Of a DNA stretch of 64,000 bases, positions 33,234-36,193 are shown in pieces. The notes under the pieces were generated by a model, which searched no databases, was not told the DNA's origin, and was given only the letters and a program-made list of their open reading frames with translations. Location of the stretch: assembly GCA_036703275.1 (NCBI GenBank), contig DATNPK010000076.1, positions 124,001 to 188,000 of the forward strand, read 5' to 3'. Source of the DNA: Coleofasciculaceae cyanobacterium. Its GTDB lineage: Bacteria > Cyanobacteriota > Cyanobacteriia > Cyanobacteriales > Xenococcaceae. The position numbers were made by a program, and so were the translations under genes. Position 1 is the first letter of the stretch. The number at the start of each line of letters is the position of its first letter.

Positions 33234-34781
33234 GTGCAAAACTGGTTGCTGCAAAATTTGAGCGATATACTCAATCGAGAATCAAAACCCCAAAGTATCG
33301 ATGAAGCAAAAAATGCTGCTGATTATGCTGTTCAGCAGGTAGGAGAGAAAAAAATAGGTCAAAAATACTATAGCCAAAAGCAGCGTTTGGCACAGTTAAA
33401 TGCTCAAAGAGAATGGCGTAGTGCGATCGCTTCTGTAGAAGAACTTCTTTTATCGGAAATAGAACATAATCAGACAACAGGTGCGTCAGCCAAACTGGGT
33501 CTAGTTTTTTCTGCTCCTGTACCTTTGTTGAGTAACTCAGATTTAGTTGCTAGTTTTCAGTCGGCAGCTTTTACAACGGATGCCTTTAAGCTTAATGCTT
33601 TAATGCCTTGTCAGTCCGTAGCAGTAGAGCCAGTAGTCGAACAACATATACCACCAGTAATTGAGCTACCTTTAATTCCCCATGATCCGATTGGTCAAGA
33701 ACAGTTTTGTTTGGTTTTGACTGCTAAGTTCGGTTTAGTCATGGTTTTAGGCGAAGACTCGCAAGGAAATGCCAAATTTCATTTTTCCTTCGATCCTTTA
33801 ACTTTGAGTGAAGTTTGGGCAACGCTGCGATCGCGCTTAGTCATCGCTAATTATCGCCGTTTAGAGCAGTTAGATAGCCAAGTAGAACAGTTTGCTCCAC
33901 CAAACCCCCATTACCGTTTAGTAACTAAATTTAGTCGTCAGTTGCTAGAGCATATGTCTGATTTTGATGCTTGGGGATTTAATTCTCGTCAGGTAGAAAA
34001 TATTCCTGCAACTTCCGCATCAGACAAGCTTCAATCAGCTTTGACCTCAACAAGAGCCACTAGCCACATTGAAATGGAACTGTTACAGGCTCTTACCCAC
34101 GAAGTAAGAACACCTTTAACTACAATTCGTACTTTAACTAAACTACTGCTCAAGCGTCAGCAAGACTTTAAACCTAAAGTGGTTCAACGGTTACAAACCA
34201 TTGATCGCGAGTGTACCGAACAAATAGAGCGAATGGAATTAATTTTCCGCGCTGCTGAATTTGAATCTACACCCACTGCCAAAGCCGTAGAATTAGTTCC
34301 GTTTTCACTAGAGCAGGTATTTCATCAAAGTATTCCTCGTTGGCAAGAAAAAGCTAAACGACGCAATGTAGACCTAAAATTTACTCTGCCTCAAAGTCTA
34401 CCAAAAGTTATCAGCGATCCTGGGATGTTGGATACCGTTTTGACTGGTTTAATGGAAAGCTGCACTCGTAGTCTGCCCACTGGTGGACATATAGATGTCA
34501 AAGTTTCTACAGCGGGTAATCAGCTTAAGCTACAGGTGCTTTCTCAAGCTAGTAATGTTGATAATCCTTTAAAGTCTTTAGGACAATTGCTAACCTTCCA
34601 GCCGGCAACAGGCTGTTTGAGTCTTAATTTAGACGTAACTAAGAATATCTTTCAAGCTTTGGGAGGCAAACTTACCGTCAGACAAAGACAAGAACAAGGT
34701 AAAGAACTAACTATTTTCCTTCCCTTAGGTAACTCTCGTAAAAGCTCTAATCCAGAACCAAGTTCTTGTGTAGGTGCTTAA
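33234..34781 (+). CDS. Histidine-kinase-like protein with His box but degenerate ATPase domain
   Basis: 515 residues, GTG start with GAGGAGG about 12 bp upstream. No membrane segments. Residues ~1-270 are an unassigned sensory region. The dimerisation/phospho-acceptor helix is normal: ALTHEVRTPLTTIRT with H289. The C-terminal catalytic domain is only recognisable by outline: the N box reads TGLMESCTR instead of NLxxNAxK, the D-x-G-x-G box is replaced by LSQASN, and the glycine-rich G2 box by CLSLNLDV. It is unlikely to bind ATP productively and so may be a phosphotransfer acceptor or docking platform. Its neighbour, 20 bp away and convergent, has the opposite defect. Confidence 0.85.
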   Translation: MQNWLLQNLSDILNRESKPQSIDEAKNAADYAVQQVGEKKIGQKYYSQKQRLAQLNAQREWRSAIASVEELLLSEIEHNQTTGASAKLGLVFSAPVPLLSNSDLVASFQSAAFTTDAFKLNALMPCQSVAVEPVVEQHIPPVIELPLIPHDPIGQEQFCLVLTAKFGLVMVLGEDSQGNAKFHFSFDPLTLSEVWATLRSRLVIANYRRLEQLDSQVEQFAPPNPHYRLVTKFSRQLLEHMSDFDAWGFNSRQVENIPATSASDKLQSALTSTRATSHIEMELLQALTHEVRTPLTTIRTLTKLLLKRQQDFKPKVVQRLQTIDRECTEQIERMELIFRAAEFESTPTAKAVELVPFSLEQVFHQSIPRWQEKAKRRNVDLKFTLPQSLPKVISDPGMLDTVLTGLMESCTRSLPTGGHIDVKVSTAGNQLKLQVLSQASNVDNPLKSLGQLLTFQPATGCLSLNLDVTKNIFQALGGKLTVRQRQEQGKELTIFLPLGNSRKSSNPEPSSCVGA

Positions 34782-34801
34782 CTCAGTGGGTTTGTTTCAG
34801 G

Positions 34802-36193
34802 TTAACTAAGTTCTGCTGGTATTGCGGGCAGCAAAATTTTAAAGGTAGTTCCTTTACCTACTTTGCTGCTTACGGCAATAGAACCGCCGCAGCGTTGAAT
34901 TAGCTGTTTGACTAGAGTAAGCCCTAATCCTGCACCCGTTGCCTTATCTTCGGTAGTTGGCTTAGTACGATAAAATCCATCAAAAATTTTGTTGATTTCT
35001 TTAGTAGCAATACCAACTCCTGTATCCATAATCAAAATTTCGATCTGCTCATTGTCATTTTTGAGTGCTGCTTGAACAAAAACCTTTCCCTTTGGTGGAG
35101 TGAATTGCAGACTATTGTTGAGTAGGTTAATGATAATTTGTCTGAACCAAGGGCGAGGACAGGAAATAGGAAGAAGATTTGCGGGAATTGTGTATCCTAG
35201 CTGAATGTCTTTTTCTTCGGCTAGTGGTTGGTAAGTGCTAACTATTCCTGGAACAATATCATCTAAGCGCAGATATTCTGCTTTAGTAGGAGTATCTAGC
35301 TGCAATAACCCAAGTAAACCACCGATCAGGGAATTTTGGCGATCGCACTGCTCACTTAGCATCTGGAGGTAACGCTGACGTTGCTCACCTTTAATCTGCT
35401 TCGATTCTAATAAGCTTAACGCCGTTTTCATGTGAGTAATAGGCGATCGCAATTCTTGAACCAAATTACTGAGAAAATCTGACTGTAATCCTAATACAGT
35501 TAAACTTTTTTCGCGAAGATGACTCGTCCTAGATAACGATGAATTAAATGCAGTCTGTACTCTTTCATTCTGACTTACCTGTTGGAGAACTAGTTTGCCG
35601 ATCAAGTCAGTCCTAACTATCACCTGGGGGTTAATGCTGAAATCTTGGTCTTTGAGGCTAGCGCTAAATACAGTGTTGTGTTTAATCCCCAAAAGGATCG
35701 GAGCAATTGCCTGGGGGGCGAAGCTAGAAACCATTTCTAGGTATGGTTGCTGTAATCTTTTACCTGAAGCATCGATCTCAATCTTGCTTTTTTGCCATTG
35801 AGCTAATGTTAAACTGCAAAAATCAGTTGCTAAAACGATTAAAAAAGATTCTCTTTGTAGCGTGGAGTTTTGGTTTAATTTAATCGAGACAACTGGTGTT
35901 TTGGCAGAAGTATCTTTTAGCAAAGATAAGGCGGAATGATTTCGTTGATTACTACAGACTACAATACTTTTGGTATTGCCCTCTTGACATAGCCTTTGAA
36001 TCTGATTAAGCCAGCTTTTAGTTTGAGGCAGTTTAACCCAAACTGTTGCTTGAAGTTGCTCTTTAATCAATAGTTCAATCACACTGCTAACATAAGATTG
36101 AAGAGTTTCTGCTCCAACAGATAAGGGAACAAGAGGCTCATCTAAGTCCTGAGTTAACTGGTACAAAGATGGTTCAGAGGTAGCAATATTCAT
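34802..36193 (-). CDS. DICT-domain histidine kinase with Gln in place of the phospho-acceptor His
   Basis: 463 residues. Residues ~10-200 match the DICT sensory domain found in cyanobacterial kinases and diguanylate cyclases. The H box reads LVQELRSPITHMKTA, with Q246 (CAA, 35456-35458) at the position of the phosphorylated His. The ATPase domain is complete: N box NLLNNSLQFTP, DTGVGI and GLGLTLVKQLIQRCGG. It should bind and hydrolyse ATP but cannot autophosphorylate at the usual site. It might act on another protein in trans, possibly the adjacent kinase-like protein, or work as a non-phosphorylating regulator. Confidence 0.88.
   Translation of the reverse strand: MNIATSEPSLYQLTQDLDEPLVPLSVGAETLQSYVSSVIELLIKEQLQATVWVKLPQTKSWLNQIQRLCQEGNTKSIVVCSNQRNHSALSLLKDTSAKTPVVSIKLNQNSTLQRESFLIVLATDFCSLTLAQWQKSKIEIDASGKRLQQPYLEMVSSFAPQAIAPILLGIKHNTVFSASLKDQDFSINPQVIVRTDLIGKLVLQQVSQNERVQTAFNSSLSRTSHLREKSLTVLGLQSDFLSNLVQELRSPITHMKTALSLLESKQIKGEQRQRYLQMLSEQCDRQNSLIGGLLGLLQLDTPTKAEYLRLDDIVPGIVSTYQPLAEEKDIQLGYTIPANLLPISCPRPWFRQIIINLLNNSLQFTPPKGKVFVQAALKNDNEQIEILIMDTGVGIATKEINKIFDGFYRTKPTTEDKATGAGLGLTLVKQLIQRCGGSIAVSSKVGKGTTFKILLPAIPAELS

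Follow-up and report, generated by a model that had tools for sequence, protein, structure and literature searches.

Two convergent cyanobacterial genes with complementary, conserved defects: a candidate split HisKA-type histidine kinase

The locus and its two kinase-like genes

The window, meaning the whole stretch of 64,000 nucleotides from a Coleofasciculaceae cyanobacterium that was analysed, contains two convergent genes, here designated P1 and P2, whose features are listed in Table 1. The gene upstream of P1 (31401–32942) encodes a carotenoid isomerase, and the gene located past P2 (36303–37217) encodes a histone-deacetylase-family protein. Pfam searches placed the HisKA domain of P1 above the cut-off (32.9 bits) and its HATPase_c match under it (21.9 bits, cut-off 26.4), while all three domains of P2 scored above their cut-offs (HATPase_c 88.6, DICT 78.4 and HisKA 38.8 bits). 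DICT also occurs together with HD-GYP domains (PMC7063779).

Table 1. Features of the P1/P2 locus, in window coordinates
Feature	Position	Strand	Description
P1	33234..34781	+	GTG at 33234, stop ends 34781; 515 aa
P1 parts		+	diverged DICT-like N-terminus, HisKA (DHp) with His289, degenerate HATPase-like domain
P1 His289 codon CAC	34098..34100	+	predicted acceptor of the pair, in LTHEVRTP
P1 degenerate CA domain	34416..34730	+	residues 395-499; Ser409 at N-box, no DxGxG, TGCLSLN at G2
Inter-stop gap	34782..34801	.	20 bp separating the P1 and P2 stop codons (convergent genes)
P2	34802..36193	-	ATG at 36193, stop at 34802; 463 aa
P2 parts		-	DICT, HisKA without acceptor His, intact HATPase
P2 intact CA domain	34823..35149	-	residues 349-457; N, G1, F and G2 boxes
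P2 Gln246 codon CAA	35456..35458	-	acceptor position
P2 DICT domain	35798..36172	-	residues 8-132

The original prediction, made from the sequence alone, described two kinase-like neighbours with complementary losses and proposed that they form a split kinase. Its coordinates, frames and residues were borne out for both genes, including the CAC codon of His289, the CAA codon (Gln) at residue 246 of P2 and the 20 bp between the 3' ends. Likewise, the ATPase boxes of P2 proved intact (N360; D390/G392/G394; G420/G422/G424), with Gln246 in place of the His. An orthodox HisKA kinase combines the His and the N, G1 and G2 boxes in one protein; P1 lacks G1 and G2 and P2 lacks the His, and the single exceptions among the homologues are the P1 protein of genome G191, with a possible G1, and the P2 protein of genome G167, with a His. 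Automatic annotation would label both proteins histidine kinases.

The other kinases of the same genome served as a baseline; a search with PF00512 gave 58 places, and the alignment of the kinase ORFs to the P2 kinase-core profile had 57 rows, four of them without the acceptor stretch, the remaining 53 counting two genes twice. The defects of the window pair exceed chance, since 51 of these 53 HisKA rows have the His and since a published survey reports a missing acceptor His in 722 of 76,471 HisKA domains, about 0.9% (PMC12632262). The two rows with Gln are P2 itself and P0003; the latter is a GAF protein with a HisKA match in Pfam and no match to an ATPase domain.

Several further kinase-like genes were observed in the course of the analysis. 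The window's genome encodes another DICT kinase, which has the architecture DICT-CHASE6_C-GAF and an ordinary His (L214), a protein with GAF and HisKA-like parts (L223:1385-3007, plus strand, contig C18) in which QELRTP replaces the His motif and which matches neither DxGxG nor GxGLGL, and a protein (L201:526-2901, minus strand, contig C12) that keeps the His and has degenerate ATPase boxes (ENANLQVTA, GSSLNLPISR), a candidate acceptor half. L239:754-2241 (plus strand) and L264:729-2384 (minus strand) resemble L223, and the three form a kinase-like family whose members each combine the two defects. L260:700-2151 and L261:700-2154 (both plus strand) and L262:855-2318 (minus strand) make up a second Gln-type HisKA family, belonging to one genus without P2; Pfam recognises GAF, HisKA and HATPase_c in L262, and both the DxGxG and the GxGLGL match are absent from it.

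P1 and P2 look homologous over most of their length, because the N-terminus of P1 resembles DICT: profile comparison aligned residues 138–241 of P1 with residues 91–203 of P2 (E 3.4e-8, probability 95), matching the P1 N-terminus to the DICT domain of P2. Scans with single P1 proteins matched DICT in 12 of the 98 (E up to 0.1, best 0.013), and only HisKA and HATPase_c were matched more often, so that P1 is not claimed as a member of the DICT family; TPR_Edg1 matched four P1 members only, with a better best E (0.0014). In comparison, DICT membership (PF10069) is clear for P2, with the window protein above the cut-off and 36 of 36 P2 members matching at E up to 0.1. The profiles of the two kinase cores align end to end, yet by profile score P2 does not stand out from the other kinases in the window's genome as a relative of the P1 core, which makes a shared DICT-kinase ancestor plausible, though not proven.

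Residues kept and lost in the two families

A query with the N-terminal part of P1 found the protein in 98 of 292 genomes of the phylum, and all 98 matches were extracted. Each of them has the acceptor His and the Thr of the HExxT motif, and 95 have the Glu following the His. The N-box Asn is present in 49, and none has all the G2 glycines together. A full G1 occurs in at most one of the 98, depending on the alignment: the MAFFT column taken for the G1 Asp contains no Asp at all, and the profile alignment gives Asp in nine and Asp with both glycines in one, the DTGKG of G191, a genome that also has P2. That stretch lies at G1 by profile and about six residues downstream in the MAFFT view, and it belongs to a variable insertion among the relatives of G191. 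The 22 additional P1 proteins from the window's own family keep the His and show no visible DxGxG. As G1 and G2 are nearly never complete and the Asn is found in half of the homologues, the absence of G1 and G2 characterises the P1 family, and that of the Asn varies among its members; of the three boxes that P1 was originally said to have lost, G1 and G2 thus stand family-wide, and the N-box loss describes the window protein with its Ser409. The degenerate domain itself is well conserved (QPETGxLSLN...GGKL), which suggests a retained function that is not ATP binding.

For P2, a DICT query reached 31 genomes and a profile 36 of 292, every one of them among the 98 genomes with P1; residues were counted in 60 distinct genomes from the phylum sample and the own family together. 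The acceptor position is occupied by Q in 38, R in 16, E in two, A in two, T in one and H in one, whereas the Glu next to it (Glu247 in the window) is present in 60/60. The N-box Asn, the G1 Asp and both G1 glycines are also found in 60/60, as are two of the G2 glycines, with the first Gly of G2 in 59/60. The Thr of HExxT has drifted and is T in 21/60. On the P2 tree the six states of the acceptor position require nine changes, and the sole His-bearing P2, that of G167, is nested inside a Gln clade. Drift at the acceptor position, next to a Glu that never varies, is consistent with a protein that would use its catalytic domain and leave its own acceptor idle. Relatives with intact functions, which would speak against the original prediction, are rare or absent in both families: a normal His in one of 60 genomes with the DICT protein, a complete G2 in 0/98 P1 homologues and a full G1 in one at most, so the reading is not refuted on either count.

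Taken together, acceptor and catalytic functions lie on separate conserved proteins (His in 98/98 P1; no His in 59/60 and intact N and G1 in 60/60 P2), and a reciprocal conserved loss in neighbouring, probably homologous genes is shown. The pair probably functions as a single mixed enzyme, given that both defects turn up again across many related species.

Distribution and neighbourhood of P1 and P2

In the phylum sample, P1 and P2 are convergent and within 3.3 kb of each other in 13 of 36 P2 genomes, which represent eight family codes; the gap between the last sense codons ranges from 7 to 3261 bases in 12 of these, the thirteenth being the window. In the own family, P1 lies within 1.5 kb of P2 in 7/26 genomes, two of them already in the phylum count; in G302 the two genes share one contig by coordinates, and the own family adds six convergent pairs overall. 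Thus P1 and P2 are neighbours in 19/60 P2 genomes, convergent in all 19, and the recurrence elsewhere that the original prediction called for was found. Two unrelated pseudokinases decaying side by side by chance would be a very improbable source of this pattern: doubly defective kinase-like proteins do exist in these genomes (P0003, L262), but the boxes of P2 and the His of P1 are retained across many cyanobacterial families, and a simple random-placement model, which ignores kinship, expects such convergent neighbours at about 0.1% per genome against the 13/36 seen. Convergent genes are not co-transcribed, which counts against a pairing of their products.

P1 accompanies P2 in 36/36 P2 genomes of the phylum sample and in 25/26 of the own family, where P2 was found in 26/27 genomes and P1 in 25/27, and each in 22/22 of those of good quality. 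P2 but no P1 match was found in G296 (81% complete), and the P1 of G314 is partial and lies at a contig end. Co-occurrence was nevertheless rejected as a proof of pairing: P1 is present in all 81 genomes of the same order among those listed (174 of the 292 genomes, without a match, stand outside this list), so P2 could hardly occur there without P1, and the asymmetry by which P2 is nearly always found with P1, and not the reverse, is weakened as evidence.

P1 is not dependent on P2 everywhere, because 62 of the 98 P1 genomes have no P2 within the reach of the profile; their P1 proteins bear identical defects and look equally ATP-dead. The original proposal of a split kinase is partly supported: the complementary and long-kept defects have strong support, and binding of the two proteins and phosphorylation of His289 by P2 are predicted. 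The gene murE is found behind P2 in eight genomes. In 12 P2-less genomes it faces P1 across 46 bp to about 4.2 kb, and the fetched stretch contains no P2. At five P2-less loci (L090, L107, L110, L129 and L142) the distance is 46 to 258 bp, as if P2 had been lost between the two. The arrangement suggests an ancestral order P1> <P2 <murE, with P2 later lost and P1 retained; a quickly built P1 tree, rich in long branches, requires 11 changes in the presence of P2. The commonest clusters among P1 neighbours, the merged P1/P2 cluster aside, are murE (20 genomes), an upstream gene for a protein of 161 aa (13) and one for a protein of 281 aa (11), and no conserved response regulator adjoining P1 was found among the neighbour clusters of the P1 genomes.

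The frequent solitary P1 bears on two other explanations. P1 could be devoted to dephosphorylating a response regulator or to phosphotransfer, with P2 as an ATP-binding allosteric partner which, like DivL or RetS, transfers no phosphate. The 62/98 genomes with P1 alone and the invariant Thr of HExxT agree with such roles, and the solved structures that the P1 profile matches include chains of RetS and DivL as well as active kinases such as ZraS. This explanation seems unlikely, as the His of P1 is invariant in 98 proteins and the ATPase residues of P2 are kept in 60/60 save for one G2 glycine, a conservation that it does not obviously require, though nucleotide binding might need it. Alternatively, P1 could receive most of its phosphate from the cell's ordinary histidine kinases, with P2 acting on another acceptor (a kinase or an HPt protein) and the adjacency of the genes being a relic. 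P2-less genomes do require a different donor if P1 is ever phosphorylated there, and a kinase-like gene lies at most 1.5 kb from P1 in seven of the 62 (G116, G127, G072, G099, G149, G231 and G177), but these seven genes differ in size and orientation, and this scenario is considered quite unlikely. In G177, a gene for a 327-aa kinase with a His (L176:4291-5271, minus strand) is on the P1 strand and overlaps the 3' terminus of the P1 frame, making this kinase a possible alternative partner of P1.

A Gln-type replacement for P2 was sought in the 62 P2-less genomes with the DNA pattern QE[ILMF][RS]TP, which gave 71 matches versus 27 for the reversed control; 30 of the 71 were fetched. The fetched matches yielded 23 frames with the motif, namely 11 resembling histidyl-tRNA synthetase, five Gln-type kinase-like proteins, one hybrid kinase (L249), where the match lies outside the acceptor site, and six others. 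None of the five Gln-type proteins from these 30 matches (L239, L260, L261, L262 and L264) has a DxGxG match; they were rejected as replacement kinases, and they count against a different donor for P1.

Possible interplay of the two proteins and known systems

The reading that is somewhat favoured makes P1 and P2 complementary halves of a natural split kinase of the HisKA type, in which the ATPase of P2 phosphorylates the His of P1. The proteins would pair via their DHp helices; P2, acting as a sensor through its DICT domain and having no acceptor itself, would bind ATP and phosphorylate His289 of P1 across the dimer, the direction of transfer being the one that the residues suggest. Phosphorylated P1 would then serve a response regulator encoded elsewhere than beside P1. 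HE/DxxN/T is a phosphatase motif (PMC3591291), and through HExxT a P1 without P2 might dephosphorylate that regulator; P2 would in that case shift P1 out of phosphatase and into kinase mode. An action of P2 through P1, with a second role kept by P1, fits the occurrence of P1 often alone and of P2 nearly always with P1. A more specific version, a vertically inherited heterodimer of homologous, reciprocally inactivated subunits that was kept across cyanobacterial families, with the P1 half able to survive alone in another role, is about as likely as not; after divergence, one copy would have lost ATP binding and the other the acceptor.

Covariation was computed for 58 P1–P2 pairs (Neff about 40), G314 and G296 being omitted as having no full P1. 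The top 200 couplings contained 14 between the DHp domains (3.2 expected), 15 of the DHp-CA type (6.8 expected) and 22 of the CA-DHp type (8.8 expected), an excess inseparable from phylogeny. The leading coupling, of P1 288 with P2 362 and 263, amounts to one independent pair resting on a change in one clade, and covariation was discounted as evidence of pairing. The structure model of P1, made from 11 sequences, has a pLDDT of 60.1 and a pTM of 0.42; its best PDB matches are ZraS, RetS, CpxA and DivL, with low TM-scores (0.20–0.26 by query). The P2 model (pLDDT 36.2) was unusable.

If the pairing is true, the pair would be a two-input kinase with kinase and phosphatase activities on different genes, a layout predicted to permit switch-like responses (PMC3591291). 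Roles would also follow for two conserved cyanobacterial proteins of which no description was found in the literature, and the pair, being natural and conserved, would illustrate the passage from a homodimeric enzyme to a mixed dimer. The literature search found no description of the P1/P2 pair, nor of a DICT-HisKA kinase as a split kinase.

Mixed dimers of crippled HisKA proteins are a classic in vitro experiment, and the reference for the mixture of EnvZ mutants is reportedly Yang and Inouye 1991. The G2* and H243A mutants of EnvZ, when mixed, phosphorylate in trans (PMC4734776); they carry the same two lesions as P1 and P2 and complement each other in a mixed dimer, but they are engineered mutants of one protein, whereas P1 and P2 are two natural genes. 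CheA3 and CheA4 of Rhodobacter sphaeroides similarly have an acceptor His without kinase on one protein and a kinase without acceptor on the other; neither autophosphorylates alone, and the acceptor protein in its free form provides the main phosphatase activity (PMC3591291). Unlike P1 and P2, which belong to the HisKA class and show decay of residues and boxes with both folds kept, they are of the CheA class and have lost whole domains. Hik36/Hik43 (PilL-N/PilL-C) of Synechocystis is a cyanobacterial split histidine kinase as well, but a split CheA homologue of the pilus/chemotaxis type, with an HPt acceptor and a CheW-interaction domain (PMC7656254). RetS/GacS and DivL/CckA resemble P1/P2 in that kinase-like proteins regulate another kinase via direct contact; the partner there is a complete kinase, while P1 and P2 are both incomplete and complementary (PMC12189002). 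Pseudokinase regulators of the DivL/RetS kind combine the loss of a catalytic step with retained partner binding; such a loss is seen in P1 and P2, and partner binding would be expected of them if they pair. Within the HisKA class, Rv0600c and Rv0601c of Mycobacterium tuberculosis are reported to be a split kinase. Both of these kinases cooperate with TcrA (PMC9274095).
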